From positions 1 through 43,593 of IMG/VR virus record IMGVR_UViG_3300031578_000109: 43,593 nucleotides of DNA; one strand, given 5' to 3'. This document shows, in pieces, positions 1-42,955 of this stretch. Position 1 is the first letter of the stretch. The number at the start of each line of letters is the position of its first letter. Position numbers and translations under genes: made by a program. Below the pieces are notes generated by a model. The model saw only the letters and a list, made by a program, of their open reading frames with translations. It searched no databases and was not told where the DNA came from. Source of the DNA: a virus.

Positions 1-396
1 TATAATTTTTGGAAAGCCGTAGACGTATTGGTTTGGGATAAGGGCCGAATAGGTATGGGCCGCCCGTGGCGCAAGCAGTATGAATTAATAATTGCGGCCC
101 ACGACGAGGATTATTGTAAAGGGGATATGGCGACGCGTGCAGATATTCTTAAATTTACACCGATTAATCATACGAACCGAACACACCAAGCCGAAAAACC
201 CGTTACTCTTTTAAGTGAATTGATAAAAGCTACTACGGCGGAAGGTGCGATAATATTTGACCCATTTGTCGGCACCGGAGCCACAGCCGTCGCAGCCCAA
301 AAACTCAATCGAAATTATATAGGCCTTGAAATCAACCCCGACTATTGCGAAATAGCCCGCAAGCGTTTAGCGCAAGAGGTATTGATAAATGCCTAA
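1..396 (+). CDS. DNA methyltransferase, C-terminal part (beta class, N6-adenine or N4-cytosine)
   Basis: This is the C-terminal part of a site-specific DNA methyltransferase that begins at 43462 if the molecule is circular. It is open in frame from base 1. Residues VWDKGRIGMGR belong to the central strand and target region of the family. FDPFVGTGATAVAA followed by YIGLEINPDYCEIARKRL is the S-adenosylmethionine-binding FxGxG motif at the C-terminus. Having DPPW first and FxGxG last is the beta-class order. The gene ends in an ATGCCTAA overlap with the helicase gene, so the two are translationally coupled. It would protect phage DNA from restriction or serve regulation. The specificity cannot be read from the sequence. 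Confidence 0.85.
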   Translation, partial: YNFWKAVDVLVWDKGRIGMGRPWRKQYELIIAAHDEDYCKGDMATRADILKFTPINHTNRTHQAEKPVTLLSELIKATTAEGAIIFDPFVGTGATAVAAQKLNRNYIGLEINPDYCEIARKRLAQEVLINA

Positions 397-1576
397 ATCC
401 CTTCGCGAACGAACCATCGCCTGGGCGCTGCAAAGCGAATCCGCCCAGCGTATCCGCGCCTGCCTTGATATCGCGCGGTGCCTCCCGCCTATCGACGACG
501 ACGGCGAGGGCTGGGACGCCATAACGTATAAGCTGGGCTGCGCGAACGGCGTCATCAACCTCCGCATCGACGCCCTCGAGGCCGGCGTGAAAGAGGATAA
601 GATTAGCCGCACGACGCGCGTCGCCTACAACGTCGACGCCGCGGCGCCCCGCTGGGAGCAGTTTCTGCGCGAGGTATTCGTAAATGACGACCTAATAGCA
701 TACGTCCAACTCGCCGTCGGCTATTCCTTCACCGGCGACATCTCCGAGCACTGCTTCTTCTTGTGCCACGGCGGCGGCGCCAACGGCAAATCGACATTCC
801 TGGGCGCGCTAAAACACGCCGCCGGCGACTACGGCTACACCCTTCCCTTCACCGTTCTCGAGCCAAGCCGCAACGCTGGCGAAGGCGCGTCGCCCTATAT
901 GGCCGACCTTGACGGCGCGCGCTTCGTTACCGCCTCCGAGGTCCGCGAAAATACCAAGCTCGACGAGTCGCGCATCAAACTGCTCAGCGGCGAATATGAC
1001 ATAACCGCGCGGCGCCTCCACGGCGCACCCTTTACGTACCGGCCGCAACTCAAACTGTGGCTCGGCGTCAACCATAAACCCCGCGTTGCCGACGACACCG
1101 ACGGCTTCTGGCGGCGGCCGCGGTACATTCCCTTCACGCAAAAATTCGAGGGCGATGCGCAGGATACGCGGCTCTTCGACGCGCTGCTGGCGGAGACACC
1201 CGGTATATTGCGATGGGTCGTCGAAGGCGCGGCGAAATGGTACGCCGCCGCCGAAGCGAACGGCGGCCGGCCGGTTCTCGCCGTCGTCCCGGGCGCCGCG
1301 GAGCTACTAAAGGAGTGGCGCGGCGAGAGCGACCCTATACAAGAGTTTCTTAACGATAGATGTATTGAAAATTACGATGTTCGCGCTGAGCGCGGCGATG
1401 TTTACCGAGAATATGACGAATGGTGTAGCGATAACCGCGTACCTCACAAGGAACGCCTAACACGTAACGGCTTTATAAGAAGATTAACCTCTCGTTACGA
1501 TACTGTTAAAGTTGGCAATAGAAGATTTTTTAAAGGTTTAGGGTTAATTGATGAGAATACGGAGTCCGCATTTTAA
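389..1576 (+). CDS. SF3/D5-family replicative helicase domain protein (C-terminal part of a split primase-helicase)
   Basis: This is a 395-residue superfamily 3 helicase. The first 60 residues (SESAQRIRACLDIAR and then CANGVINLR) are the D5_N region, which in homologues continues directly from the primase part. Walker A is GGGANGKST at residues 128-136, Walker B ends at RFVTASE near residue 184, and the sensor asparagine is in WLGVNHKPR near 228. The C-terminus is a small winged-helix-like region. It should unwind the phage DNA at replication forks. The start ATG at 389 overlaps the methyltransferase stop and has no clear ribosome site, so translation probably depends on coupling. The missing N-terminal half is at 42459-43462. 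Confidence 0.9.
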   Translation: MPKSLRERTIAWALQSESAQRIRACLDIARCLPPIDDDGEGWDAITYKLGCANGVINLRIDALEAGVKEDKISRTTRVAYNVDAAAPRWEQFLREVFVNDDLIAYVQLAVGYSFTGDISEHCFFLCHGGGANGKSTFLGALKHAAGDYGYTLPFTVLEPSRNAGEGASPYMADLDGARFVTASEVRENTKLDESRIKLLSGEYDITARRLHGAPFTYRPQLKLWLGVNHKPRVADDTDGFWRRPRYIPFTQKFEGDAQDTRLFDALLAETPGILRWVVEGAAKWYAAAEANGGRPVLAVVPGAAELLKEWRGESDPIQEFLNDRCIENYDVRAERGDVYREYDEWCSDNRVPHKERLTRNGFIRRLTSRYDTVKVGNRRFFKGLGLIDENTESAF

Positions 1577-1579
1577 GAG

Positions 1580-1683
1580 CGGCACAACGGCACTTTAAAC
1601 CCCCATTTGGTATATTATACATACGTGGAAGTTACTATAGAAAGAAAATACGCAAATAGGCCTCTAAAGTGCCGCAAGTGCCG
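1580..1683. repeat. Long inverted repeat with doubled GGCAC/GTGCC boxes
   Basis: The left arm CGGCACAACGGCACTTTA (1580-1597) is matched on the other strand by TAAAGTGCCGCAAGTGCCG (1665-1683), with one extra base. Each arm holds two GGCAC boxes. CCATTT (1604-1609) and AAATGG (1684-1690) extend the symmetry. The AT-rich centre contains GTATA-T-TATAC. It lies directly behind the helicase gene and ahead of a helix-turn-helix gene. It could be an operator array or a replication origin. There is no T-run, so a simple terminator is unlikely. Confidence 0.6.
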
Positions 1684-1723
1684 TAAATGGCTATAAGGCG
1701 GTCAACAATAACGGAGGTTCGCT

Positions 1724-1933
1724 ATGGTAGTACTCAACGGTCAGGTTGACACCGAGGAGGTATACGTTGGCTGGAAGGCTATCGCCGCGGCGCTGGGCGT
1801 GTCGGTAACGACGGCGAAGCGATGGCGGCGTAAAAATAAGTTGCCGGCGTATAAGGTTGTAGGTCAATTTCGTGCAAGTAGGGCGGAAATAAAGGCGTGG
1901 ATGGCCGGTTTTGGCCTAAAAAAGCCTAAATAA
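1724..1933 (+). CDS. Small helix-turn-helix DNA-binding protein (MerR/excisionase-like)
   Basis: This 69-residue protein has a single helix-turn-helix at about residues 15-45 (WKAIAAALGVSVTTAKRWRRKNKLPAY). The following residues, FRASRAEIKAWM, are typical of the HTH_17/excisionase-type winged fold. A ribosome site, ACGGAGG, precedes the ATG. It stands alone between the replication genes and the terminase, between an inverted repeat upstream and a promoter downstream. It is therefore a good candidate for the regulator of the late genes or of its own region. An excisionase role is possible but less likely, because it is far from the integrase. Confidence 0.75.
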   Translation: MVVLNGQVDTEEVYVGWKAIAAALGVSVTTAKRWRRKNKLPAYKVVGQFRASRAEIKAWMAGFGLKKPK

Positions 1934-1948
1934 GTCGATTTTGTTATC

Positions 1949-1977
1949 TTGTCAAAGGGGATATTATCGGTTATGCT
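1949..1977 (+). promoter_or_regulatory. Probable late promoter
   Basis: TTGTCA (1949-1954) and TATGCT (1972-1977) are separated by 17 bases and match the sigma70 pattern. It points into the terminase and structural genes and leaves a leader of about 130 bases. Confidence 0.5.
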
Positions 1978-2017
1978 TATAGCGTGAAATTAGTATACAG
2001 CGAATCCTCCCTTCCCT

Positions 2018-2101
2018 GGCGACGCACGGCCTTTAGGCTGGCGTCGCCTTTATCGCAATTTAGGCCCGAGGTAGGCGCGCCGAAATAGCAAAGCCTCGGG
2101 C
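2018..2101 (+). other. Two strong hairpins in the leader of the terminase genes
   Basis: GGCGACGC (2018-2025) pairs with GCGTCGCC (2041-2048), and GCCCGAGG (2064-2071) pairs with CCTCGGGC (2094-2101). They fill the space between the late promoter and the small terminase start at 2119. There is no T-run. They may control transcription or translation. A packaging site is also possible, since such sites often lie by the small terminase gene, but nothing specific shows it. Confidence 0.45.
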
Positions 2102-2118
2102 AGCCCTGCGGGGCGTAT

Positions 2119-2463
2119 ATGGTTAAGGCGAAGCAACCGAATAAAACGGTGGATAACGGCCGTAAGGCTAATGGCCAGTTCGGCGCCGGTAACGATTTTG
2201 GCGAGCGTTCTGGGCCGTATAGCAAGCAGGACCGCGAGTGGAAGCGGCAGGCTGAAGAGGCGATGCGGCGTGCGGTGCCCGTTGAGCGCCTTGAGCGCAT
2301 AATGGACGTGATGGCGCAGAAGGCCGAGGATGGCAACGCCGAAGCGGCTAAGTTTATTGCGGACCGCTTACTTGGCAAGGCACCGCAGCAGCTCAACGTC
2401 GGCGGCGCCGACGGCGGCCCGCTTGAACTAACGGTAAATGTTACGCCGCCTAAAAATAAATGA
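2119..2463 (+). CDS. terS: Terminase small subunit
   Basis: The product has 114 residues. A basic N-terminus with the KANGQFGAGN motif is followed by a helical region (residues 40-95) rich in E and R and the segment ADRLLGKAPQQ. This layout is common in phage small terminases and DUF5681-like proteins. It should recognise the packaging site on concatemeric DNA and load the large subunit. It lies directly before the large terminase gene and overlaps it by about 26 bases. No good ribosome site precedes the ATG at 2119; the start could also lie slightly elsewhere. Confidence 0.75.
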   Translation: MVKAKQPNKTVDNGRKANGQFGAGNDFGERSGPYSKQDREWKRQAEEAMRRAVPVERLERIMDVMAQKAEDGNAEAAKFIADRLLGKAPQQLNVGGADGGPLELTVNVTPPKNK

Positions 2464-3730
2464 GGAATGGCCCGGTGGATCGAAGGCCCAAAAGCAATAC
2501 ACGGTTTATAAGGCGTGCGTTGATGGTCGTTATCGCCGCGTCGTCGTGCGGGCTGGCCGCAAGTTTGGCAAGACGTTTACCGCGGTCCGGGTTGCACGTA
2601 GCTGGGCGGCGGAAAGCCCGGGCGAGATTATTTTATTCGCGGCGCCGGAGTTCTCGTACTTGCGCGACCAGGTTGTACCGGAGCTGATAAAGGACATACC
2701 AAACGAGGCGGTTAAGGGCGGTAGTTGGGGCGTCGGATATAATAAGTCGGAGCATATCTTAACTATGGGGAATGACGCGCAGATATTTTTACGGAGTATG
2801 GAGAACGCGGACTCGGTGCGGCCGTTGTCGGTTGCGGGTTTAATCGCCGAGGAGTTTAGCTTGTGGACTCCCTACGCGTGGAATGAGTGCGTCCGGCCGA
2901 CGCTTATGGCGAAGGCGGCGCCGGCGCTGTTTATCTTTACGCCTAAAGGTATGAACCAGGCATACGAGCTTTGGGACCATGCGATATCAGGCGCTGAAGG
3001 CCATAAGGCGTTTCACTTCACGAGTTACGATGGCCCGGTGCCCCGGGAGGCTATCGACGCGGAGGCGGCGACGATGCCGGAGGGCGTGCGGCGCCAGGAA
3101 ATATACGCCGAATTCCTTGAGGACTTGGGCGGCGTGTTTCAGGGTGTTATGGATTGCGTCGCCGGCGATAAGGAAAGCGCGTTACTAAACGAGATTTACG
3201 TTATAGGCGCCGATGTAGGCGAGGTCCACGACTTCAACGTAGCGACGGTTGTGCGGCGCAGCACCAAGGCCGTCGTCGAGCAAGTCAGGTTTACGGGCGT
3301 TGAGCCTGAAATGGTCGTTGACCGCTTTAAGGCGTTGAGCGACCAGTATAACGGCGCTGTAGTTCTAATCGACAATACGGGGTTGGGCTGGGCCGTTTGG
3401 GGCCGGCTAAAGACGCTTGGCGTGCCAGTCAAGCCTTACAGATTTACGGCGGAGTCGAAGCGCCAATTAATCGCGAACCTCGTAATGATGATTTCGCAGC
3501 GCTCGATACGTTACCCTGATATCCCGGAGCTTATTAACGAATTGCAGATATACGAGGCGAAGCAGCTCCCGAGCGGCACCGTTCAATACGGCGCCCCCTC
3601 GGGTTACCACGACGACTGCGTGACGGCGCTGGCGTTGGCGTGCTGGGAGCTGGGCCACGGTATACAGATAACCGACTTCCGGCCGGTGATGGGCCGCGAG
3701 CGGAGTCAGTTGCCGGCGGGGCCGTTCTGA
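2438..3730 (+). CDS. terL: Terminase large subunit
   Basis: This 430-residue protein has the two domains of a packaging motor. In the ATPase, Walker A is RAGRKFGKT at residues 38-46 and Walker B is GLIAEE at about 134-139. In the RNase H-like nuclease, the acidic residues are D259 (IGADVG), D312 (LIDNTG) and D392-D393 (YHDDC). It translocates DNA into the prohead and cuts it. The first ATG overlaps terS and has no clear ribosome site, so it is probably coupled to it. The stop TGA shares its A with the start of the next gene. Confidence 0.93.
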   Translation: MLRRLKINEEWPGGSKAQKQYTVYKACVDGRYRRVVVRAGRKFGKTFTAVRVARSWAAESPGEIILFAAPEFSYLRDQVVPELIKDIPNEAVKGGSWGVGYNKSEHILTMGNDAQIFLRSMENADSVRPLSVAGLIAEEFSLWTPYAWNECVRPTLMAKAAPALFIFTPKGMNQAYELWDHAISGAEGHKAFHFTSYDGPVPREAIDAEAATMPEGVRRQEIYAEFLEDLGGVFQGVMDCVAGDKESALLNEIYVIGADVGEVHDFNVATVVRRSTKAVVEQVRFTGVEPEMVVDRFKALSDQYNGAVVLIDNTGLGWAVWGRLKTLGVPVKPYRFTAESKRQLIANLVMMISQRSIRYPDIPELINELQIYEAKQLPSGTVQYGAPSGYHDDCVTALALACWELGHGIQITDFRPVMGRERSQLPAGPF

Positions 3731-3888
3731 TGACGTTGACGCAAGCAGAGCAGAGGATAATCGAGCTATACCGCGAAGTAAAACATCACGGGTACGGTGG
3801 CTTTGAAGTTCGCGTTGAGAGCGGCCAAGCAACGTTCATTAGGGTTAGGGATTACAAAGTAGAAAAACTCGACGATGCCACAGCTTAA
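3730..3888 (+). CDS. Small DUF2292/YezD-like protein
   Basis: This 52-residue protein has the DUF2292 pattern: a short helix (EQRIIELYREVK), a strand pair (GFEVRVESGQATFIRVRD) and a short tail. Its function is unknown. It starts on the last base of the terL stop (TGATG) and overlaps the portal start by 14 bases, so the three genes form one tightly coupled unit. A similar fold is encoded at 31639. Confidence 0.65.
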   Translation: MTLTQAEQRIIELYREVKHHGYGGFEVRVESGQATFIRVRDYKVEKLDDATA

Positions 3889-5980
3889 GCCACAACTCGA
3901 TATAAATAAAATCCTGCAGTCGATGGGATACGGCTACCTGTTTAGTAATCCCTTTGCGACTGAGTATGGCCGCGACCCGAAAAACGCCTACCGTACGGCG
4001 TGGGACGCCTACGATAAGATGCTGGCCTGGGACCCGGAGTTAGCGGCGCTCGACAAGCTGGCGCGGATGGCGGTGCTGGCCCACGATACCGAAATCGTCG
4101 CGGCTACCGAAGACGCTGAGAGCGAGAAAGCGGCGGAGTTCTGCCGCGAGATGATTTCAAATATACCGTATTGGGACGACATCCTATACGACCTGCTTGA
4201 CTCGCCAGCCAAGGGTATGGCGGTGATTCAAAAGAATTACGTTCGCGACGGCTCGCGAATACTCATCGCCGACGGCGATAACGGCCCGGCGCTGCAAACG
4301 CTGCCGCAATACTGGTTTTATTGGAAGCCCGTCGACGGCGTGCCGACGCTTGTATACCGCGGTTCGTACGGCGGCGAGAAAGAGCAACCCCTCGACCCCG
4401 AGAACTTTATTATTGCGCGGCACGGTTATACTGTTGAGAATCCCTATGGCCGCGGCTACCTTACCGAAGCATTCTGGACGTTCGTAACGAAGAAAATTAT
4501 TAAGGGATGTATGGTTCAGCTTGTAAAGCGTGGCGTCGAGGTAGAGCGCTGGGTGCAGTGCATAGCGGAAGACGTAGGTAAAGAAGCCTGGAATATGAAA
4601 GATATTATCCGCGACGCGCTTAGCGACTTTGCGCGATATAGCGATATAGTATTGCCGCCCGGCGCCGAGTTACACCACCAGCCCGGCGACCAGGGCGCGC
4701 TGCAGTCGGAGCTCAATTTTACCCACCTGCTCGATAACTACGAAGCGAAGTTAGTTCTCGGCCAAACGCTTACGACGGACCAAGGCCGTACCGGCAGCTA
4801 CGAGCTCGGTAAGATACACGAGTTACAGCAGAACCGCTTTACGATTTCACGCTGTAAAGACCGTGATGCCGATATTAGCGACCAGCTCCTAACGCCGGTA
4901 TGTGAGCTCAACTTCAACGTTGGCCGGGCGAAGTTCAAGACGAAATACGAACCGGAACGCGACCGTAAGGAGGACGCGGAGATACTTGAACGGCTTGGTA
5001 AAACGGTAAAGGGATTAAGAACTACCCAAGACCACGTACATTATGCGTTTGACCTTCCTCGACCGGAGCCGAACGCGCCGCCTGAAGAGATATACGAGAT
5101 TACGGTCGGCAGCGGGGGCGGCAGCGGCGGCGGCGGCGAGCCCTTCGGTGAACCGTTCGGCGGCTTCGCGGCTGTGGCGCAAAAAAAAAAGTTGACGGCG
5201 CTGGCGACGAAGGCGGCGCGGCAGGACGAAGCAGATAAGCGCGTAAAGCTCGTAGACGGCCAGGTAGCGCGGTACTTAACGCTCGTAAAGGGTACGGTAG
5301 ATAGGCGGTTCAAGGAATGGCGAAAACTAATCGACAAATCGCGATCCTACGACGACTTAATGGCCCGCGTCGAGTCGCGCGCGCGCGAGTGGCCGGCGTT
5401 CGCCGGCGCGCTGCGTACGGCCGCCGTCGCCAGCTACGCGCTCGGTATGGCGACGCAGGCGACGCAGACGGCCGTCAAGGCCGCGGCGATAGCGGCGCCG
5501 CCCGAGTATGATACCTGGGAAGACGTGCTGCGGGCGTTCAAGGACAAGGTGCCGATAAGCGCGGAGGTATTTTACAGCCTCGACCAGGAGTTACGCGCTA
5601 AATACTTCGCGACGGCGATAGCGGAAGATGACTATATGGCGACGGTGTTGCATAGCTTGATGACGACGGCGATAGAAGGCGGCGAGACGTTCTCGACGTT
5701 CAAGGCGGGCGCGTATGAGGGTATGCGCGCCGGCGGCTATACCTTCCCGGAGCCGTACCGCCTCGAGACGGTATTTCGCCGGCATATCAGTACCGCCGAC
5801 GCCGCGGCGCGCGATGAGTGGTACGAGATACCCGAAGTCGCCGAGATGCTTTGGGGCTTCGTCTATACTACCTCGGGGCGGCCGAACGTGCGGCCATCGC
5901 ACGCTAGCCTTAATAAGACGAAGTTGCCGAAGGAGCATCCATTCTGGAATACGAATTCGCCCCCTAACGCCTATGGTTGA
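3875..5980 (+). CDS. Portal protein (Mu gp29/DUF935-like) fused to MuF-type head morphogenesis domain
   Basis: Residues 1 to about 400 are a DUF935-type portal, with NPYGRGYLTEAFW and LGQTLTTDQG as family signatures. The portal ring is the DNA entry channel and the vertex to which the neck attaches. A glycine-rich linker (GSGGGSGGGG, near residue 415) leads to a MuF-like domain at about 600-701 (ETVFRRHISTADAAARDEW, then HPFWNTNSPPNAYG). In Mu these are separate proteins, gp29 and gp30. The reading frame stops at TGA 5978-5980, exactly before the CxC motif expected after PPNxYG, while recognisable MuF sequence continues in the same frame to 6115. See the next two entries. Confidence 0.9.
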   Translation: MPQLKPQLDINKILQSMGYGYLFSNPFATEYGRDPKNAYRTAWDAYDKMLAWDPELAALDKLARMAVLAHDTEIVAATEDAESEKAAEFCREMISNIPYWDDILYDLLDSPAKGMAVIQKNYVRDGSRILIADGDNGPALQTLPQYWFYWKPVDGVPTLVYRGSYGGEKEQPLDPENFIIARHGYTVENPYGRGYLTEAFWTFVTKKIIKGCMVQLVKRGVEVERWVQCIAEDVGKEAWNMKDIIRDALSDFARYSDIVLPPGAELHHQPGDQGALQSELNFTHLLDNYEAKLVLGQTLTTDQGRTGSYELGKIHELQQNRFTISRCKDRDADISDQLLTPVCELNFNVGRAKFKTKYEPERDRKEDAEILERLGKTVKGLRTTQDHVHYAFDLPRPEPNAPPEEIYEITVGSGGGSGGGGEPFGEPFGGFAAVAQKKKLTALATKAARQDEADKRVKLVDGQVARYLTLVKGTVDRRFKEWRKLIDKSRSYDDLMARVESRAREWPAFAGALRTAAVASYALGMATQATQTAVKAAAIAAPPEYDTWEDVLRAFKDKVPISAEVFYSLDQELRAKYFATAIAEDDYMATVLHSLMTTAIEGGETFSTFKAGAYEGMRAGGYTFPEPYRLETVFRRHISTADAAARDEWYEIPEVAEMLWGFVYTTSGRPNVRPSHASLNKTKLPKEHPFWNTNSPPNAYG

Positions 5981-6115
5981 AACTGCACCAAGGTTGAAGT
6001 GCTTGCCGAAGGCAGGCCTAGCGAAAACGAGCCGCCGGAGAATTGGCGTAGTATACCTGACGCCAAAGCTGGCTTCGACAAAACGCCTGGCGAGATGTTG
6101 AGGGCGATGCCGTAA
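5978..6115 (+). other. In-frame extension of the MuF domain behind a TGA codon (possible selenocysteine readthrough)
   Basis: After TGA at codon 702 the frame stays open for 44 codons to TAA at 6113-6115. It reads NCTKVEVL and then PDAKAGFDKTPGEML. MuF domains normally read PPNGxGCRCxV followed by a PDxGFxxNPG-like stretch. The TGA thus stands where the first conserved cysteine belongs, and the family sequence resumes right behind it. Codon use resembles the rest of the gene. Other genes here (terL, 10882-11328, the tape measure) use TGA as stop, so the code is not globally changed. Selenocysteine, UGA misreading, a mutation or a sequencing error could explain it. Confidence 0.6.
6001..6017 (+). 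promoter_or_regulatory. SECIS-like hairpin behind the in-frame TGA
   Basis: GCTTGCC (6001-6007) pairs over seven positions with GGCAGGC (6011-6017), including one U-G pair, and closes a GAA triloop. Twenty-seven bases separate the TGA from the loop, and the first loop base is G. Both agree with the bacterial SECIS rule of an apical loop about 16-37 bases downstream with a G in its first two positions. A bulged U as in E. coli is not seen. Such hairpins also occur by chance in GC-rich genes. Confidence 0.4.
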
Positions 6116-6270
6116 TGGAAGATTGGGAAAAACAATACAGAATACGTTTAGGTGAACTTATCGTAAAAGAGATGCTCCGCGAGCTGTTACCCGTGTTTTT
6201 AGCTGGCTTTGCTATAGGAGCGGTCGTAGTTGGTGCCGTAGCGATTATAATGATAATGATTATGATATGA
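6115..6270 (+). CDS. Small single-pass membrane protein
   Basis: This 51-residue protein begins MEDWEKQYRIRLGEL and has one hydrophobic segment from about residue 26 to the end (VFLAGFAIGAVVVGAV, then repeated isoleucine and methionine). The ATG overlaps the TAA that ends the MuF extension (TAATG). This supports translation running through the TGA upstream, because coupled genes here normally abut. The function is unknown. It might be a minor membrane factor of infection or lysis. Confidence 0.6.
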   Translation: MEDWEKQYRIRLGELIVKEMLRELLPVFLAGFAIGAVVVGAVAIIMIMIMI

Positions 6271-6303: not shown

Positions 6304-6340
6304 GCGGGGTCCGCTCTTCGGAGCAGGCCCCGCTTTTTTT
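6304..6340 (+). terminator. Rho-independent terminator with TTCG loop
   Basis: GCGGGG (6304-6309) pairs with CCCCGC (6328-6333). An inner stem GCTC-TTCG-GAGC (6313-6324) follows, and seven Ts come directly behind. It lies inside the late gene cluster, so it probably only partially reduces or regulates transcription of the downstream head genes. Confidence 0.85.
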
Positions 6341-30340: not shown

Positions 30341-31105
30341 ATGGCGAAAGACAAAAGCGTAGTAATCGAAGGTGAAGTGGTGGACGACTCGTTTAGCCTA
30401 TCGGGCGGCCTGGTGCCGATACCGGTAGAAGAAGAAGTCGTGAACGTACCGGGCCTTACGAGCAACGAACCGCCGGACTTCGGGCCGGCCTGGATTAAGC
30501 TCGACCAAGACCGCGGCGGCTTCAATATCGAGGGCGAACACGTCGACCGCCTAGTATGCTGCATCTTCGCGCTAAAGCCGACGTATACGCGATTCGAAAG
30601 GGACGAGAACGGCGACCCCGTCCTCGGCCGGCCGCTTTGCAAATCACTTGATCGCGTACACGGCACCGGCGACCCGGGCGGTAACTGCGCGAAGTGCGCG
30701 AAAAAAGAATGGCCCGAGAAGAAGGGCGCCAAGCCGGATTGTAGCCACACCGCCGAGTTACTACTCGCCCGCGACGCCGGAAGGCCGATGCCAGAAGGGG
30801 CATACCTTCGGGTAAAAGGCATGTCTGTAAATCCGGCACTTCAATACGTACGGAAACTCGGCCGGAAGTATACGAACAACCTATGGCGCGCCCTCACCAT
30901 CATAACGACCGTCCCCGAGAAATACCAGCAGACGAAAACCTATTACGTCGCCGCGTTCGAACAAGTCGAGGGCAAGGATTTCTTAGAAGTCCCGGCGATA
31001 CAACCGGCCCTCATACAACTGAAGGCGCAACTCGAAGAGGGCTTTGTCCTCTTCGCAACCGAGCACGACGATACCGACGACGGCGACGCCGAGCGGTCGT
31101 TTTAA
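30341..31105 (+). CDS. Putative single-stranded DNA-binding protein
   Basis: The product has 254 residues. ATG 30341 follows AAGGAGGAG. The acidic N-terminus is followed by strands that could form an OB fold (DRLVCCIFALKPTYTRFERD). A zinc cluster NCAKCAKKEWPEKKGAKPDC comes near residue 125, then more strands, and a disordered acidic C-terminus (HDDTDDGDAERSF). An acidic tail ending in phenylalanine and the gene position behind a Cas4-like exonuclease both suit an SSB or recombination mediator. The assignment is by layout, not by a defining motif. Confidence 0.55.
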   Translation: MAKDKSVVIEGEVVDDSFSLSGGLVPIPVEEEVVNVPGLTSNEPPDFGPAWIKLDQDRGGFNIEGEHVDRLVCCIFALKPTYTRFERDENGDPVLGRPLCKSLDRVHGTGDPGGNCAKCAKKEWPEKKGAKPDCSHTAELLLARDAGRPMPEGAYLRVKGMSVNPALQYVRKLGRKYTNNLWRALTIITTVPEKYQQTKTYYVAAFEQVEGKDFLEVPAIQPALIQLKAQLEEGFVLFATEHDDTDDGDAERSF

Positions 31106-31120
31106 CCCGTAACACCCAAC

Positions 31121-31161
31121 GGGGCGGCGCGTTAAGTGTCGAGCACGGTTCGCGCCGCCCC
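31121..31161 (+). other. Perfect 11-bp hairpin in a leader
   Basis: GGGGCGGCGCG (31121-31131) pairs completely with CGCGCCGCCCC (31151-31161) around a 19-base loop. No T-run follows, and a ribosome site and ATG 31178 come right behind. It may protect or process mRNA, or attenuate transcription between two early genes. Confidence 0.6.
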
Positions 31162-31177
31162 ACGGAAGGGGAAGGAT

Positions 31178-31459
31178 ATGAGAAAGCCTACATTAGAAAG
31201 GTCGCAAGGTAGATCAGGTGGAATCCAAAGGTTATATCGTTTCGAAAACGGCTTCGGCGCCAGCGTTGTACAAAACACATATAGCTACGGCGGCAACGAA
31301 GGATTATGGGAACTCGCCGTCTTAAAGTTCTCCGGCCCGGACATCAAAGACTACAAATTAACCTACGACACGCCTATTACCGACGACGTGATAGGTCACC
31401 TAAACGAAGCCGAAGTAGAAGAATACCTTGAGAAAATCGAGGCGTTGAAACTCGTATGA
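31178..31459 (+). CDS. Small early protein
   Basis: The product has 93 residues. ATG 31178 follows AAGGGGAAGG. It has a beta-rich middle ([26 protein letters not shown]) and an acidic helix at the end ([15 protein letters not shown]). This resembles small conserved phage proteins of unknown role that lie near Gp37-type genes. It overlaps the next gene by four bases. Confidence 0.6.
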
Positions 31460-31635
31460 GCGCCGACGGCTACCTACCCCCCGGCTGTACGCACCGCGAC
31501 GTCGACCGCGCCGCCGACGCCCGCCTGGACGGCGACGAGCCCGAGGCTTGCCCCGTGTGCGGCGCCCCCGGCGAATTCGTGCGCGGCCGGATGACGTGCT
31601 GCGGCGCAACGGCGAAGGATATCGAGGAGGATTAA
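31456..31635 (+). CDS. Small zinc-ribbon protein
   Basis: This 59-residue protein starts in the stop of the preceding gene (ATGA). CPVCGAPG and MTCCGA form a zinc-ribbon-like four-cysteine set; CTH near the N-terminus may add to it. The function is unknown. Confidence 0.55.
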
Positions 31636-31638
31636 AAA

Positions 31639-31788
31639 ATGCTAAAAGAATTGGTACTTTATCTTGGCCGACTGGCGCGGGAACGTTTTTACGGCACGGT
31701 AGAGCTTAAATTTGAAGCTGGCCGCGTCGTCTCCGTTCGCCTTAACCGAACGCTAAAGCTCGAAGATTTAGCGGGTGAAGGTGAATAG
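31639..31788 (+). CDS. Second small DUF2292/YezD-like protein
   Basis: This 49-residue protein has an N-terminal helix (LVLYLGRLARERFYG) and a strand pair (TVELKFEAGRVVSVRLNR), the DUF2292 pattern. GAGGAGG precedes the start. It is related in layout, not closely in sequence, to the protein at 3730. It lies 27 bases upstream of the tmRNA-like RNA. Confidence 0.6.
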   Translation: MLKELVLYLGRLARERFYGTVELKFEAGRVVSVRLNRTLKLEDLAGEGE

Positions 31789-31815
31789 AAAATTGCGTCG
31801 TAGTTATCCGCAAGT

Positions 31816-31892
31816 GGGGGCGCGAGTGGACTCGACGGTGATTAAAGCCGAAGCGCTCTTCACCGTACCGGGTTCGATTCCCGGCGCCTCCA
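31816..31892 (+). ncRNA. Compact tmRNA-like RNA: tRNA-like domain without messenger domain
   Basis: This 77-nt sequence folds as an acceptor stem GGGGGCG/CGCCTCC with discriminator A and a T-arm CCGGG-TTCGATT-CCCGG. After the acceptor it has TGGACTCGACGG, which matches the tmRNA D-loop consensus (E. coli TGGATTCGACGG) at the same distance from the 5' end. The third acceptor pair is G-U, the alanine identity element of tRNA-Ala and tmRNA. In place of an anticodon arm, ACGGTGA (31835-31841) pairs with TCACCGT (31860-31866) around 18 bases, like a shortened tmRNA P2. No tag frame and no pseudoknots exist. CCA is not encoded. Confidence 0.7.
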
Positions 31893-31907
31893 ATAGGAGG
31901 TAATAAG

Positions 31908-32129
31908 ATGAGCGAGATACAAAGCAAGTTAGGCGACCTTCACCTCACCATACATAGCCTTGAGAGTACGGCCCGGCTCGAGGGTCGTATCAGTGTCCAA
32001 GGTTGGCGGACCGTTATGCTTGACCTCACCGGCCAGGCGCAGCGGGAGCTTATCGAGATATACAAGGAGATACTCGGCGACGCTAAGGTAAATGAGAAGA
32101 TTGACGAAATATTAGCGGCGGCGGAATAA
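31908..32129 (+). CDS. Small early protein
   Basis: This 73-residue protein is behind TAGGAGG. An N-terminal beta-region (DLHLTIHSLESTARLEGRIS) is followed by helices (QAQRELIEIYKEIL). It begins 16 bases after the tmRNA-like RNA, so both are on one transcript. It overlaps the next gene by one base (TAATG). No family is recognised. Confidence 0.55.
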   Translation: MSEIQSKLGDLHLTIHSLESTARLEGRISVQGWRTVMLDLTGQAQRELIEIYKEILGDAKVNEKIDEILAAAE

Positions 32130-32488
32130 TGAACGCGCCGGACCTTACGCAGCTCGACGTATACGACCTCCTGGACCGCTACGGCGGCTACCTGGACGCG
32201 CGGGGGCGCAGCATCCTTGATCACTTCCTCGAGTATATGGCGCACCCCGCGCAGCGCGTCGCCGAAGTGCGCGATGAAGAGGGGTTGAGCAAAAAACTCT
32301 ACTACGCGACGCTGGCGATGCTCGCCAAGCTGCAAACGTTCGCCGCCGGCGCCGAGGAGTGCCCGCCGCCGCCACCCCCCAAGCCGCGGCGCACCCACGC
32401 GCAGGCTGCCCGGGACGCCGCCGTTGACCGCCGCGCCATAACGCGGGCGTGGCGCAGGATATTAAAGGAGGCTAAAAGTGGAAAGTAA
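32129..32488 (+). CDS. Small helical early protein with proline-rich linker
   Basis: This 119-residue protein has a helical N-terminal half (VYDLLDRYGGYLDARGRSIL), a run of six prolines near residue 80 and a basic helical tail (RRAITRAWRRILKEAKSGK). The tail sequence EAKSGK recurs at the end of the next gene, because both gene junctions carry the same repeat. Confidence 0.55.
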   Translation: MNAPDLTQLDVYDLLDRYGGYLDARGRSILDHFLEYMAHPAQRVAEVRDEEGLSKKLYYATLAMLAKLQTFAAGAEECPPPPPPKPRRTHAQAARDAAVDRRAITRAWRRILKEAKSGK

Positions 32489-33044
32489 CGAGCCGAACGA
32501 ACGGGAAAAGAAACTAGCCCAAAAGATATTCGACGAATTATTTAAGCGGTTCACAGCTGTATTCTTAGACGCAAAACTTGGCATAACCGAAGCTACCGAC
32601 CAAGCGGAATGCGTAATATATCAAGCTCTCGCCGCCTACCGCGCCGAACTCACCGCGCCCGCCGGGGGCGATGTAGAGACGGTGGATAAACTCGTAAGGA
32701 GGTTTTACAAAATACCTGACGGCGAGGAGTTGGCGGATTGGGCCTATAAACTCCGCAACGAAATCACAGCCGCCCTCCACGTCGCGCAGCAAGTGGAGCG
32801 GAGCAAGGTTCCGCCGCCCGACGAAATACATCGAGATGGTTACAACAAAGGCGTAGAAGCCGAACGCGAGAGATGGGAAGCGGCGGCGCGAAAATATCGA
32901 AGGATTTATAAAGCGGCGAGGAGAGTATTAAAATCGTGGGAAGAGGACGGTCCGGGTGGCCTAACCGATATAACAATAACGGGCGAATTAAAGGACGCCA
33001 TCACGGCCCTCTTGGCGGGCGAGGAGGCTAAAAGTGGAAAGTGA
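32478..33044 (+). CDS. Helical early protein, first of two tandem paralogues
   Basis: This 188-residue protein starts with GTG behind AAGGAGG. It is helical and charged. Residues YRAELTAPAGGD and the segment TAALHVAQQVERS return in the next gene (YRAELTAPAGGD, EAALHAARQAERA), and so do the start region NEPNERE and the junction bases. The pair arose by tandem duplication. The C-terminus has an inserted coiled-coil part (RERWEAAARKYRRIYKAARR). The function is unknown. Confidence 0.6.
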   Translation: MESNEPNEREKKLAQKIFDELFKRFTAVFLDAKLGITEATDQAECVIYQALAAYRAELTAPAGGDVETVDKLVRRFYKIPDGEELADWAYKLRNEITAALHVAQQVERSKVPPPDEIHRDGYNKGVEAERERWEAAARKYRRIYKAARRVLKSWEEDGPGGLTDITITGELKDAITALLAGEEAKSGK

Positions 33045-33531
33045 ACCGAACGAACGGGAATGGAAATGTCGTTACGAACGGGAAAAAGCTGTAGCGAATA
33101 ATATCGCAAATAGTTTTTCCCGCGTAGTAGAGCTTTCAACCGACGCCAAAGGCATATTGGCCGATTTGGCGTATCTTGAAATCACGGACTACCGCGCCGA
33201 ACTCACCGCGCCCGCCGGGGGCGATGACAGGGAAGCGGCGGAGAAGTTATACGATGATATAGGAATATTCGCGGACGAAACTAAAGCGGGGCGCGATTAC
33301 CGTATAGGGCAAATCGAAGCCGCCCTCCACGCCGCGCGGCAAGCGGAGCGGGCGGAGGGCGAGGCTATCAAGACGGCGGAATTAGAATTTGTAAGGACGA
33401 CCGGACTACTCGTAGCAGATTACGCTACGATGGGCAAGGCGACGCCGGAACGGCAAGAGCAATATATCCTGGCCCGCGACGCCCTCGCGGCGCTCGTGGG
33501 ATGCGAGAAAGAGGTGGAGAGCGGTGAGTGA
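33034..33531 (+). CDS. Helical early protein, second tandem paralogue
   Basis: This 165-residue protein starts with GTG and the same GAGGAGGCTAAAAGTGGAAAGT junction type as its neighbour. It shares the NEREWK start, YRAELTAPAGGD and EAALHAARQAERA with the preceding gene, but has a different C-terminal half (GLLVADYATMGKATPERQEQ). It overlaps the next gene by eight bases. Confidence 0.6.
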   Translation: MESEPNEREWKCRYEREKAVANNIANSFSRVVELSTDAKGILADLAYLEITDYRAELTAPAGGDDREAAEKLYDDIGIFADETKAGRDYRIGQIEAALHAARQAERAEGEAIKTAELEFVRTTGLLVADYATMGKATPERQEQYILARDALAALVGCEKEVESGE

Positions 33532-33748
33532 GAAATGCCAAAATTGTGGGGAAATTTATGAAACGGTTTATAGAATTCCCGATGGAGTTTGGGCGATTTT
33601 GATGAAAGCGATGGGCCTCCGTAGAGCTAACGGCTTATTGTGTATAGGTTGTGCGGATAAAATTGCCCGCGATAAAGGCATTACATTATATTGGGCCGCA
33701 GAGGTTAATCAATACCCGGTAACCCCGCCCGGCGGCGGAAAGGAGTAG
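33524..33748 (+). CDS. Small zinc-binding protein
   Basis: The product has 74 residues. CQNCGEIYE at the N-terminus and LLCIGCADK in the middle form a four-cysteine zinc site (CxxC-x35-CxxC). The middle part is hydrophobic and helical (PDGVWAILMKAMGL). It is probably a nucleic-acid or protein adaptor. Confidence 0.6.
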   Translation: MSEKCQNCGEIYETVYRIPDGVWAILMKAMGLRRANGLLCIGCADKIARDKGITLYWAAEVNQYPVTPPGGGKE

Positions 33749-33752
33749 CGAT

Positions 33753-34055
33753 ATGGCAATAAGACTGCGCGTAAATAAAGTTACGGGGCAATGGATGGCG
33801 TTGTGCGCGGTAGAATATCCCGAAGAATATGGAGATATTTATTTAGACGACGCGCACGACCACGCCCTCCGCGAAAAATACTTGGCCGACTATGAAAGCG
33901 AAGGGTTAATCAACGGTTCCCGCATCGCCGCCCTGGATGCCGAGCGCGACCAGGCCCGCGCCGAACGCGACGCCGCGCGGCGGGCGCTGGATGCGGCGAA
34001 AAAAGAAGCAGCGGATTGGAAAGAAGAAGCGATAGCTATGAGGGCAAGAAGTTAA
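33753..34055 (+). CDS. Small early protein with coiled-coil tail
   Basis: The product has 100 residues. A strand-rich start (IRLRVNKVTGQWMALCAVEY) and an acidic loop are followed by a long charged helix (ALDAERDQARAERDAARRAL) typical of a coiled coil. AAAGGAG precedes the start. The function is unknown. Confidence 0.55.
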   Translation: MAIRLRVNKVTGQWMALCAVEYPEEYGDIYLDDAHDHALREKYLADYESEGLINGSRIAALDAERDQARAERDAARRALDAAKKEAADWKEEAIAMRARS

Positions 34056-34093
34056 ACCCGCGCCGCGCTCAAGGCGGCGGAGAGGAGCGCGAG

Positions 34094-34198
34094 ATGAAGT
34101 CGCTAATCCTAATATGGCCGGTCCTGGTATACGCGGCGTTTATGATTGTAGTAATTATCTACGCCGCCTACGCCAACTACAAAGGGAAGCCGCTTTAA
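34094..34198 (+). CDS. Tiny membrane protein
   Basis: This 34-residue protein reads MKSLILIWPVLVYAAFMIVV and continues as one membrane helix with a short basic end. AGAGGAGCG precedes it. It overlaps the next gene by one base (TAATG). It could be a superinfection-exclusion or early membrane factor. Confidence 0.55.
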   Translation: MKSLILIWPVLVYAAFMIVVIIYAAYANYKGKPL

Positions 34199-34629
34199 TG
34201 AAGGCCGCCGTATACATCCTGGCGGTGCTGCTGCTCGTATCCGCCGCCCTTAATGTGATACTGGGTTTTGAGGTATACAAGGCCCAAGGACAACGGGATG
34301 CCTGGTGCCTCGTGGCCCTCGTAGTTCGGGAAAATAATAAGCAACTCGGCGAAGTTCTTAACGACCGCGAGGCGATGGAGGCGTTTATGCAAAACCAGAC
34401 CGACGCCTACTTTGCCGTCCTTGACGCATTTAATAAAGTAGCGCCGGATATGCCGAAGGGGAATATCCCCGCCGACCCCGAGCTACAACGGTTGTACGTT
34501 CTTTATTACAAGGTAAACGACGAGGCTTGGAACGGCGACGCGGAAAAACTTAGGCTTTGGGGCCAAAAGTATAAATTAGATACGACAATACCGGATAGCC
34601 CGGACCCCATCGCCGGTGGGCCGGAATAA
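34198..34629 (+). CDS. Membrane-anchored early protein
   Basis: The product has 143 residues. The N-terminal hydrophobic helix (YILAVLLLVSAALNVILGFE) is an anchor or uncleaved signal. The rest is helical and acidic and should lie outside the membrane. Together with the preceding tiny membrane protein it may form an envelope unit. No family is recognised. Confidence 0.55.
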   Translation: MKAAVYILAVLLLVSAALNVILGFEVYKAQGQRDAWCLVALVVRENNKQLGEVLNDREAMEAFMQNQTDAYFAVLDAFNKVAPDMPKGNIPADPELQRLYVLYYKVNDEAWNGDAEKLRLWGQKYKLDTTIPDSPDPIAGGPE

Positions 34630-34669
34630 TCGCCGCCCTAATGTGGGCGTGGCGGTTGATAAGAGGAGG
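34630..34669 (+). repeat. 40-bp direct repeat, copy 1 (hairpin plus ribosome site)
   Basis: Forty bases are identical to 35874-35913. The unit holds a hairpin (GCCC-TAATGT-GGGC inside CGCC and GGCG arms), then TTGATAAGAGGAGG, the ribosome site for the next gene. It acts as a portable 5' leader. Confidence 0.85.
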
Positions 34670-34675
34670 TAAGTG

Positions 34676-34990
34676 ATGGAACCGATAAAGGTTTATACGT
34701 GCGGAGCGCGGGCGATATTCGTCGAGTCGCCCGAGAATTGTCTGCTCTTAAAGAACGGCAACTGTAAGGATGGTAAGGCTTGCGACGCCGTCGAGGTCGT
34801 CGTAATCCCCGAAGCCCGCCACGCCAAAACGCAGGCGGCGCTCGCGGCGGCGGAGGAGATATTAAGTAGCCTCGATGAAATTAGTACGGAAAGTTGGGCT
34901 GGAATTGCGGCGGGTAGCTGGGTTGATATGAGCGAAGTACGTGAGGCCCTTGCCCTAATCCGTGAAGCGAAGGGAGCCGAAGATGATTAA
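34676..34990 (+). CDS. Small early protein, member of a duplicated block
   Basis: The product has 104 residues. ATG 34676 follows the ribosome site of the 40-bp repeat. The N-terminal half is cysteine-containing (VYTCGARAIF, NGNCKDGKACDAVE). The C-terminal half (EARHAKTQAALAAAEEIL, then EALALIREAKGAED) is shared with the protein at 35919. The cysteines may bind metal. Confidence 0.6.
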   Translation: MEPIKVYTCGARAIFVESPENCLLLKNGNCKDGKACDAVEVVVIPEARHAKTQAALAAAEEILSSLDEISTESWAGIAAGSWVDMSEVREALALIREAKGAEDD

Positions 34991-35207
34991 ATACAATAAA
35001 AGGGATACGGCCGAAGGGCGTTTACTTTCGGCGATTATCAAGGCTGGATATTTTCCGGCGCTAGCGTATGAAGGGAAAGCCGGTTGGTACGTATATATTA
35101 AAAATAGGTCAGGCATTATGGTAGCGCGCGGGAATAAAAGTAACCGCCGCTCGGCAATAATCGCGGCGATAAAGGACATTAATAAGGGAGCCGAAGATGC
35201 CGGATAA
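34983..35207 (+). CDS. Small basic early protein
   Basis: This 74-residue basic protein has a helix, two strands and a helix (LLSAIIKAGYFPALAYEGKA, WYVYIKNRSG, RRSAIIAAIKDIN). It is inserted between the two genes that are adjacent in the second copy of the block (35919 and 36229). AAGGGAG precedes the start. Confidence 0.55.
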   Translation: MIKYNKRDTAEGRLLSAIIKAGYFPALAYEGKAGWYVYIKNRSGIMVARGNKSNRRSAIIAAIKDINKGAEDAG

Positions 35208-35532
35208 AATAGTAATACCGCCGGAGCGGCCGTGCTGGAAATGTCGGCCCGTGGGGCCGGAAGATATGCCGGAGTTTTTAGCATTTATGGCCGATAAAAA
35301 CTGTACGGCTTGCCACGGCACCGGCCGGACGCGCATCTTCGACGAGTTCGCCGCGGCGATAAAAAAATTACTATATATTAATTACGAACATACCGGGCCC
35401 AGCAGTGGAAACTTACCCGGAAAAAGCTATCGGGTTAAGATATCGAATGGCGCAAGGGAATATATCGCTTTTGGCCCCACGCCCACCGCCGCCATGGAAG
35501 CCGCGGCGGTCAAGTTTAATGAAGGAGGTTAG
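35197..35532 (+). CDS. DnaJ-type zinc-finger-like protein, paralogue 1
   Basis: The product has 111 residues. MPDKIVIPPERPCWKC and CTACHGTGRT form a rubredoxin/DnaJ-like zinc site (CxxC and CxxCxGxG). The second half has strands and ends GPTPTAAMEAAAVKFNEGG. The first and last parts are nearly identical to the protein at 36229, while the middle differs. Confidence 0.6.
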   Translation: MPDKIVIPPERPCWKCRPVGPEDMPEFLAFMADKNCTACHGTGRTRIFDEFAAAIKKLLYINYEHTGPSSGNLPGKSYRVKISNGAREYIAFGPTPTAAMEAAAVKFNEGG

Positions 35533-35536
35533 GAGA

Positions 35537-35740
35537 ATGGAAAACCCAAGACTTTTTCTAAGCGAAGCAAAGGTAAAGGATATAATTCAGGCTTTAGCAA
35601 AGGCCGACCCGGAAGCCTATATTCGTTTTGACGTATGGGATGAGAAACAAGAGTCATACGGTAATGAATATAAATATCTTAACGGGATAGAATACGACCT
35701 TATCGATAAAAACGCAAACGTGATAATTAACGTAGGCTAA
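35537..35740 (+). CDS. Small acidic early protein
   Basis: This 67-residue protein is behind AAGGAGG. It has a helix (EAKVKDIIQALAKADPEAYI) followed by strands (IRFDVWDEKQESYGN, YDLIDKNANVIINV). It resembles small phage proteins of unknown role. The gene is AT-richer than its neighbours. Confidence 0.55.
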   Translation: MENPRLFLSEAKVKDIIQALAKADPEAYIRFDVWDEKQESYGNEYKYLNGIEYDLIDKNANVIINVG

Positions 35741-35765
35741 TCGCCTATCTGATTAGGAGGTCAAG

Positions 35766-35885
35766 GTGAGCGAACCCAAAGCCGAAGCCGTACCATTCAC
35801 GGTGTTTCGCGTCGAGCGCGACGGCCACGTAACGCATACCCTCGCACGGTTGGGGAAGCCGAGCTCGTATTCTTCGCCGCCCTAA
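35766..35885 (+). pseudogene. Truncated copy of the gene at 36890
   Basis: It starts with GTG behind AGGAGGTCAAG and encodes the same first 33 residues as the 36890 gene (EPKAEAVPFTVFRVERDGHV and LARLGKPS), with one residue missing. After LGKPS the frame runs into the second copy of the 40-bp repeat and ends at TAA 35883. The full gene has 83 residues, this one 39. It marks a recombination joint. Confidence 0.8.
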
Positions 35886-35913
35886 TGTGGGCGTGGCGGT
35901 TGATAAGAGGAGG
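35874..35913 (+). repeat. 40-bp direct repeat, copy 2
   Basis: It is identical to 34630-34669. It supplies the hairpin and ribosome site to the gene at 35919 and at the same time forms the truncated end of the pseudogene at 35766. Confidence 0.85.
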
Positions 35914-35918
35914 ATGTA

Positions 35919-36239
35919 ATGAGCGACGAAATAGTAAAGGGTAATACGTGCTGGAACCGAGCCGCATTTACAGGTGAAGTTGCCGATTGCCCCTGTCTAA
36001 CAAAGCACGGCTACGAAGAACTTTGTATCGCTGGCCCGTATGCTGGCGATTGCGACGCCGAACCCGTCTATCTATACCCCAAAGCCCGCCACGCCAAAAC
36101 GCGGGCGGCGCTCGCGGCGGCGGATAAAGTATTAGCCGAATTTGAATTAAGAGTAGGTAGGCGGAGTATTACATTTGATGAAATTAAAGCAGCCCGCGAG
36201 CTAATCCGCGATGCGAAAGGAGCCGAAGATGCCAGATAA
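35919..36239 (+). CDS. Small early protein, second member of the duplicated block
   Basis: The product has 106 residues. The N-terminal half has its own cysteines (NTCWNRAAFTG, DCPCLTKHGYEELC, GDCDAE). The C-terminal half (KARHAKTRAALAAADKVL, then AARELIRDAKGAEDA) matches the protein at 34676. The two are paralogues with exchanged N-terminal parts. Confidence 0.6.
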   Translation: MSDEIVKGNTCWNRAAFTGEVADCPCLTKHGYEELCIAGPYAGDCDAEPVYLYPKARHAKTRAALAAADKVLAEFELRVGRRSITFDEIKAARELIRDAKGAEDAR

Positions 36240-36531
36240 AATAGTAATACCGCCGGAGCGGCCGTGCCCGTATTGCGACGGTAAGGGATACATAATCGAA
36301 TTAGAAGGTGAGAAGTGTTTAAATTGCCACGGCACCGGGCGGGCGTGGGTGTTCGACGAGCTCGCGGCGGCGGTAGACGAAGCCGGTTTTGAAATCGAGC
36401 AGCCTTTTAAAATAGCTTCTAACGAGTGGGAAATAAGCATATCGGATTGCTGGTATAAACATAGCGGCACCGGCCCCGCGCCCACCGCCGCCCTGGTAGC
36501 CGCGGCGGAGAACGCTAATGAAGGAGGTTAG
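36229..36531 (+). CDS. DnaJ-type zinc-finger-like protein, paralogue 2
   Basis: The product has 100 residues. CPYCDGKGYI and CLNCHGTGRAW are two CxxCxGxG zinc motifs. MPDKIVIPPERPC and the end GPAPTAALVAAAENANEGG are shared with the protein at 35197. It overlaps its upstream neighbour by 11 bases. Confidence 0.65.
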   Translation: MPDKIVIPPERPCPYCDGKGYIIELEGEKCLNCHGTGRAWVFDELAAAVDEAGFEIEQPFKIASNEWEISISDCWYKHSGTGPAPTAALVAAAENANEGG

Positions 36532-36535
36532 GAAG

Positions 36536-36877
36536 ATGGGAATGCCTAATACGCAAAAGTATGCTAATTCAGCGGCGGCGAAATTACATGACTTGAGTTT
36601 AACCGAAATTGAGGCTACTTCGCTTGGCGTTGCGCTCGTGCTGGCCATCGTACAATCGTTTCGGGATTTAAAAATACACGACGACGGTAAATACTATGAC
36701 GCATTTATAGCCGGCGCGCCGAGCGAGGAAAAGCGCGTGGCTATAGAAAAGCTCATTAAAACCCTTGACGGCCTCGATAACCACCAAGTCCAAGCGTTGG
36801 GCCATTTTATCGGCGGTCAATTATTTATGGTTCAACAGGCCGACGGGTTAGAAATTTTCGAAGAGGAAATTAATTAA
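36536..36877 (+). CDS. Helical early protein
   Basis: The product has 113 residues. ATG 36536 follows AAGGAGG. It is helical (SLTEIEATSLGVALVLAIVQ, AIEKLIKTLDGLDNHQVQAL) with an acidic end (FEEEIN). It has no membrane or metal motif. The function is unknown. Confidence 0.55.
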   Translation: MGMPNTQKYANSAAAKLHDLSLTEIEATSLGVALVLAIVQSFRDLKIHDDGKYYDAFIAGAPSEEKRVAIEKLIKTLDGLDNHQVQALGHFIGGQLFMVQQADGLEIFEEEIN

Positions 36878-36889
36878 GAGGAGGTCAAG

Positions 36890-37141
36890 GTGAGCGACGA
36901 ACCCAAAGCCGAAGCCGTACCATTCACGGTGTTTCGCGTCGAGCGCGACGGCCACGTAACGCATACCCTCGCAAGGTTGGGGAAGCCGAGCCTTTGTATA
37001 CCCGCCGCCAAAGCGCGGGAGTTTTTGAGCGAAGGGATAAGGCTCGCGGCCATTCTTGCCGTCGAAATTCCCGCATACGAAAAAAGTTGCGACGAATTCC
37101 TGGTAAAAGCTAAAACCCTAAAGGCGACGCTGCCGGAATAG
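36890..37141 (+). CDS. Small early protein (intact copy)
   Basis: This 83-residue protein starts with GTG behind GAGGAGGTCAAG. Strand-like first half (VPFTVFRVERDGHVTHTLAR), helical second half (AKAREFLSEGIRLAAILAVE). A truncated duplicate is at 35766. Function is unknown. Confidence 0.6.
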   Translation: MSDEPKAEAVPFTVFRVERDGHVTHTLARLGKPSLCIPAAKAREFLSEGIRLAAILAVEIPAYEKSCDEFLVKAKTLKATLPE

Positions 37142-37150
37142 GAGGACGAC

Positions 37151-37336
37151 GTGAAAGCGAAGTTTAAAAAGGGCGATATAATATTTATTGAGGGCAGTGC
37201 AGAAAAGTTTTTCGCTCAGGTAATGCGAGTAGGCGGTGCTTATATCAAGTGGTGGGACGGCCGCGAAACCGATTATTGTATGAACCATATCGCAACCCTC
37301 GTATGCCGCGCCGAGAACCGCGAAGATGGCGCGTAG
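37151..37336 (+). CDS. Small SH3-like early protein
   Basis: The product has 61 residues; GTG start behind AGGAGG. FKKGDIIFIEGSAEKFFAQV and IKWWDGRETDYC look like a small beta-barrel of SH3/Tudor type. The function is unknown. Confidence 0.55.
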   Translation: MKAKFKKGDIIFIEGSAEKFFAQVMRVGGAYIKWWDGRETDYCMNHIATLVCRAENREDGA

Positions 37337-37361
37337 CGTCATAAACCCAGGAGGTTAGAAG

Positions 37362-37586
37362 ATGAAGTTATACCAACGCGGATTCGATAAACTAAACGGC
37401 GGCGCGTTAGCTCATACCGGCGAAGCAATATTGATGCTTTGCAAGTTCGCCGACGAAACCAACGCCGACGAAGGTAAATTCACAGTAAGTTGGATTCCCG
37501 ATAACGAAGACGAAAAACCCGCAATCGGCGAATGGGTGCCGGAAGTAATATTGCGCGTTCATAAATATACCGGCGAAGAGGATTAA
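37362..37586 (+). CDS. Small early protein
   Basis: This 74-residue acidic protein is behind AGGAGG. No motif is recognised (HTGEAILMLCKFADETNADE, IGEWVPEVILRVHKY). It overlaps the start of the RuvC-like gene by one base (TAATG). Confidence 0.55.
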   Translation: MKLYQRGFDKLNGGALAHTGEAILMLCKFADETNADEGKFTVSWIPDNEDEKPAIGEWVPEVILRVHKYTGEED

Positions 37587-40419: not shown

Positions 40420-40451
40420 CGGGCGCTGAAGGCCCGGAAGAGGAGGTTGTG

Positions 40452-40820: not shown

Positions 40821-40895
40821 CGTGCGCCACTCCCTAACGGCTATAATCCTCACCGGATAAGTTATTTAAACTATTCAATAAGGAGGTGAAATAAT

Positions 40896-42953: not shown

Positions 42954-42955
42954 CT

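Follow-up and report, generated by a model that had tools for sequence, protein, structure and literature searches.

Many of the selenoproteins known from prokaryotes act in redox reactions or in the handling of metals. A catalogue published in 2026 (PMC13188914) comprises 119 prokaryotic selenoprotein families, some of them with UxC or CxU motifs. Neither PF04233 nor any phage or virion structural protein is included in this catalogue, in which the word "phage" is absent, and phages are not mentioned in the deep-Sep and GOS selenoproteome papers either. For huge phages (>200 kb), tRNA-Sec genes were reported, but tRNA genes only (PMC10747093). A full-text literature search, whose scope did not cover most subscription papers, retrieved no report of a phage selenoprotein. 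The minor head proteins of the MuF type (Phage_Mu_F, PF04233), such as gpF of Mu and gp7 of SPP1, adjoin the portal or are fused to it and harbor a PPNGxGCxC or HPNCRC motif. The title of a cited paper states that gp7 is required for efficient infection.

The DNA analyzed here, referred to as the window, is an IMG/VR virus record (G000) of 43,593 bases. Its ORF 3875–5980 (701 amino acids), which stops at a TGA at 5978–5980, codes for a portal of the Mu type joined to a MuF domain. The phage appears, like dozens of unrelated phages, to produce this portal-linked head protein with selenocysteine (Sec, the 21st amino acid) in place of a nearly universal cysteine. Domain, motif, and linkage to the portal are the same as in the known MuF proteins, and the profile matches span the TGA. 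Whereas known MuF members have cysteines, one or both of the cysteine codons are TGA in the window and its relatives, mostly followed by a SECIS-like hairpin. The arrangement resembles that of bacterial selenoproteins (PMC13188914), in which UGA likewise occupies the position of a conserved cysteine, a bacterial SECIS (bSECIS) is located 16–37 nt downstream, Sec and Cys alternate, and, as in the genomes that carry related prophages, SelB and tRNA-Sec are encoded. A link between phages and selenocysteine is shared with the huge phages (PMC10747093); in the window, however, the proposed Sec codon lies in a structural gene, and a phage tRNA gene is lacking. The features of the locus are as follows:

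3875–6115, plus strand: portal–MuF fusion gene with the TGA read through (746 residues, U702, stop codon TAA at 6113–6115; Pfam, PHROG)
5900–5902, plus strand: His of the invariant R-x-x-H (R165 and H168 of the aligned segment), present together with C-x-C in 53 of 53 aligned MuF domains
5978–5980, plus strand: TGA in frame at the position of the invariant Cys in PPNGxG-C-x-C, proposed to encode selenocysteine 702
5981–6112, plus strand: 44-codon extension behind the TGA, with the final beta strand predicted for the MuF fold and the tail GFDKTPGE
5984–5986, plus strand: Cys704 (TGC), which forms the second position of U-x-C and is replaced by TGA in 14 other phage contigs
6001–6017, plus strand: candidate bacterial SECIS hairpin GCTTGCC-GAA-GGCAGGC (−9.5 kcal/mol; stem of 7 bp; GAA loop 27 nt downstream of the TGA)
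6115–6270, plus strand: next gene, a predicted membrane peptide of 51 amino acids read from the sequence, whose ATG at 6115 overlaps the distal TAA (TAATG)

The sequence-only reading had proposed that the TGA replaces a conserved cysteine of the portal–MuF protein, that the frame continues for 44 codons with MuF-like sequence, that the next gene overlaps the distal TAA, and that a 7-bp hairpin with a GAA loop follows. Each of these points was borne out: a cysteine is found at codon 702 in all aligned homologs, the frame reaches the TAA at 6113–6115, the ATG at 6115 gives TAATG, and the hairpin is located as claimed. The peptide around the TGA reads PPNAYG-U-NCTKV. Alignment of 13 MuF proteins places their only invariant cysteine at the TGA codon, and this cysteine is likewise invariant in two larger alignments (53 and 88 sequences). 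The conserved set of the larger alignments consists of Y, R-x-x-H, PPN, G, C, and C, all of which are retained in the window except the first cysteine. An in-frame UGA aligned with a conserved cysteine of homologs, as required for a selenoprotein, is therefore present. In the Pfam search, the read-through protein matched Portal_Mu (PF06074) at residues 43–392 (7.8e-42) and Phage_Mu_F (PF04233) at residues 593–705 (9.6e-08, 33.2 bits vs. a gathering score of 29.6); with a score above the gathering score and the fusion to Portal_Mu, it qualifies as a PF04233 member. The profiles of PHROG 113, 220, and 23416 matched up to residue 741 of 746, as did tblastn matches (to approximately 741), so that the family similarity extends about 40 residues beyond codon 702. 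The GFDKTPGE tail aligns with GWDYNVGE of relatives. The MuF domain of the window shares at most 30% identity with other MuF domains and is known from a single metagenomic record; a search of the viral contigs with the whole portal–MuF protein yielded nothing, and the NCBIfam selenoprotein models gave no match.

A DNA-level scan of 2.9 million viral contigs (IMG/VR) for PPN[GA]-x-G-TGA-x-Cys resulted in 31 matches, 27 of which were plainly MuF with a frame open before and after the TGA; the other four (L017, L018, L023, and L039) were chance matches. The occurrence of the TGA in related phages, named in the sequence-only reading as support for a selenoprotein, was thus observed at the same codon in 27 viral contigs. 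TGA at the second cysteine of C-x-C (Cys2) was detected in 14 contigs, all of them real MuF, and TGA at both cysteine codons in eight contigs, three of which were real MuF. The latter (L120, L121, and L122; PPNGWG-U-K-U) carry two TGA codons in MuF and are candidates for proteins with two Sec residues. The motif exists in four states in phages, CxC, UxC, CxU, and UxU. In the controls, none of four matches with TAA or TAG at the first cysteine (Cys1) and none of two matches with TGA at the neighboring Trp codon was a real MuF. The TAA/TAG control is weak on its own because these codons are two changes away from the cysteine codons; the Trp control is fairer, since TGG is converted to TGA by one transition. 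The presence of TGA at the two cysteines and nowhere else in the motif is a signature of selenocysteine, as opposed to random nonsense mutations.

The hairpin of the window meets the published bSECIS rule (loop 3–9 nt, stem 4–16 bp, G in the first two loop positions, spacing 16–37 nt, MFE ≤ −7.5; PMC13188914), and its GAA loop lacks the common GG or GU. When the region downstream of the TGA was simply folded, it did no better than dinucleotide shuffles, and the bSECIS rule was therefore applied together with synonymous shuffles. Taken alone, the window hairpin exceeds chance only modestly and is only weakly significant: it is equaled by 6.5–7.8% of synonymous shuffles with the window's own codon usage and at 2.6% of all the window's TGA triplets. 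Across the family, the rule was met by 19 of 26 distinct Cys1-TGA genes (73%, window included) and by seven of eight Cys2-TGA genes (88%), compared with approximately 10% (Cys1) and 7% (Cys2) of synonymous shuffles and with 21% and 16%, respectively, of 76 Cys–Cys homologs read at the same sites. With one gene per 60%-identity cluster and the codon usage of each locus, seven of ten Cys1 clusters passed vs. 1.0 expected; the largest number in 200 shuffled sets was four. At positions shifted by 60–120 nt, the pass rate was 4–12% for Cys1 and 0–12% for Cys2, which shows that the hairpin signal is position-specific. L019, L037, and L042 failed the rule. L022 and L026 also failed; their hairpin, GUGUCAGGUCUGACAC, with an AGGUCU loop, is located approximately 14 nt from the TGA and thus outside the 16–37 nt range. 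We take this loop to resemble that of the E. coli fdhF SECIS. A bacterial SECIS is accordingly shown for the family, in which most relatives meet the rule, and is suggestive for the window itself. Among the Cys–Cys MuF homologs, 11 of 45 clusters met the hairpin rule vs. 3.2 expected, possibly as relics of earlier Sec forms or due to coding constraint.

The recurrence and the hairpins bear on the reading offered as the alternative to a phage-head selenoprotein, namely regulated read-through, and on its leaky counterpart. In either case the UGA would usually act as a stop, a near-cognate amino acid would be inserted there by a fraction of the ribosomes, and the resulting short and long portal–MuF forms would differ in their last 45 residues. 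UGA is the leakiest stop codon, a mixture of forms could be useful with MuF fused to the portal, and TAATG links the extension to the gene that follows. However, the TGA is restricted to the two cysteine codons and never found at the adjacent Trp codon, the hairpins lie at SECIS spacing, and UxC, CxU, and UxU alternate in other phages, where two successive read-through events would be very inefficient. Read-through is therefore unlikely. It is not excluded for the window, although the Sec-specific signals argue against a generic process. The selenoprotein part of the proposal is supported, and the phenomenon extends beyond this one phage.

The sequence behind the TGA is under purifying selection between close TGA-bearing relatives, with a dN/dS of about 0.1. 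For L034, L035, and L044, all with TGA, the ratio was 0.10–0.12 over 245 codons after the TGA and 0.06–0.14 before it. The pairs L032/L043 and L046/L055 showed the same tendency (0.09 and 0.20), and the more distant pair L024/L040 displayed weak constraint on either side of the TGA (0.42 and 0.89). In several relatives, the frame extends for more than 200 codons past the TGA. Continued coding is thus evidenced by selection in the TGA-bearing relatives; for the window, it rests on homology and the TAATG coupling only. In AlphaFold2 models of a relative and of the window domain (pLDDT 88 and 81, respectively), U-x-C is immediately followed by a beta strand, so that a stop at the TGA would be predicted to remove the end of the domain. 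Solved structures gave no match by sequence and none by fold at E ≤ 0.001, and the predicted viral structures that matched and were named are mostly head-morphogenesis or minor capsid proteins.

The closest relative of the window by terminase is L291 (IMGVR_UViG_3300031673_011804), which is 99.7% identical to window positions 40400–43593 and 1–3169. The two diverge inside the terminase gene (window 3169, L291 6717), and L291 has a different terminase C-terminus, portal, SPP1-gp7-like MuF, and following genes, either due to a module swap inside terL or due to a chimeric assembly. The MuF protein of L291 matches PF04233 and reads ITLHPD-TGA-RCVAEP, with the TGA at the first cysteine of CRC. A hairpin at 20 nt (GCCAGU-AGUUG-ACUGGC) meets the bSECIS rule but is insignificant alone (385 of 2000 shuffles do equally well). 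It would be surprising for head modules as different as these two to carry TGA there on a shared backbone if UGA were not read as Sec by a common host. If L291 is chimeric, its MuF sequence stands, but the inference of a common host falls.

These data also weigh against an error of sequencing or assembly and against a pseudogene of recent origin, by which the true codon of the window would be TGC or TGT. The window is a single record without read data, and TGA is one base away from both cysteine codons. However, more than 40 other contigs and genomes, among them near copies from different samples, share this TGA and in most cases a hairpin of this type, the event recurs in the unrelated module of the sibling phage, and the sequence after the TGA is under purifying selection in relatives. 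We consider such an artifact very improbable.

Of the 52 matches obtained in genome contigs, 50 arose by chance in frames full of stops; the other two were prophage MuF genes with TGA at the same cysteine, one in a MAG of the Desulfobacteraceae (L085) and one in a MAG of the Nitrospirota (L111). Both genomes encode tRNA-Sec (76.1 and 73.1 bits, respectively; cut-off 47) and SelB (389 and 361 bits; cut-off 242). A third genome (G150), which also encodes SelB, has a prophage MuF of another subtype that reads IPVHTF-TGA-RCCWLP; a hairpin of −10.3 kcal/mol lies 18 nt behind its TGA. Of the Sec machinery, for which the host was to be inspected according to the sequence-only reading, SelB (in three of three genomes) and tRNA-Sec (in two of two tested) were thus found for related prophages only, and the host of the window itself is unidentified. 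In the phylum of the Desulfobacteraceae MAG, 131 of 148 genomes carry SelB; host SelB is hence permissive but hardly discriminating there and was rejected as discriminating proof within that phylum. Among 80-odd MuF places in 395 genomes of this phylum, two contained a TGA, which indicates that the Sec form is in the minority.

That a specialized tRNA or an altered genetic code causes UGA to be decoded as Cys, or as some other amino acid, would fit the TGA at the site of an expected Cys but is hardly conceivable, as 10 other predicted genes of the window end in TGA, which marks its genetic code as standard and TGA as an ordinary stop (a TGA-reassigned phage of the code 4/25 type would not use TGA as a stop), neither a tRNA gene nor any Rfam match was found in the window, SECIS hairpins would be needless, and the host genomes of related prophages encode SelB and, in the two tested, tRNA-Sec.

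The TGA of the window is therefore very probably a selenocysteine codon at which the host SelB inserts Sec by means of the hairpin; this is inferred in the absence of protein, ribosome-profiling, or selenium data and with the host unidentified. SelB carrying Sec-tRNA(Sec) would bind the mRNA hairpin just downstream and insert Sec at codon 702, which would yield the complete portal–MuF protein. Without Sec decoding, translation would end at residue 701, and the last strand of the MuF domain would be lost. One may speculate that incomplete decoding leads to a mixture of full and truncated portal–MuF subunits, MuF being fused to the portal. The Sec residue would take the place of one of the two nearly invariant cysteines of C-x-C, a motif paired with the invariant R-x-x-H. 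In the minor head protein, C-x-C may bind a metal or act in redox chemistry, and a selenolate could serve there as well as a thiolate or better; this putative role of H…U-x-C is likewise an inference.

In a tree of 121 MuF domains, the four motif states require 22 changes. The Cys state alone requires 17, at least 12 of which are forced by well-supported branches. In one clade, 19 of 21 rows have Sec. The window is located on a very long branch, and its placement is unsure. Phages of Sec-using hosts have very probably switched between Cys and Sec at the MuF site many times. Selenocysteine is probably a recurrent component of tailed-phage heads, with several MuF subfamilies having arrived independently at UxC, CxU, or UxU and with virion assembly or infectivity depending on the host for selenium and SelB. 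The novelty would lie in a selenoprotein family that is the Sec form of a known head protein; no earlier report of such a use of selenium in virus particles was found. If true, Sec in a structural head protein constitutes a new selenoprotein family and, as far as could be found, the first in virions. It would also justify testing whether selenium plays a part when phages are assembled and during ejection, and the C-x-C of MuF, whose conservation is unexplained, would become testable as an active or metal site. Gene callers presumably truncate such minor head proteins, as well as the portal fusion of the window, and phage annotations would need correction.

Further observations concern the layout of the window. 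Its ends, positions 1 and 43593, are adjacent in L291, separated by 159 bases, and the record may represent a nearly whole, circularly permuted genome. Directly after the small membrane gene, a GC-rich hairpin followed by a T run (6304–6340) looks like a terminator ending the portal operon. Large ORFs are sparser in a long region (31100–37500) than elsewhere in the genome.
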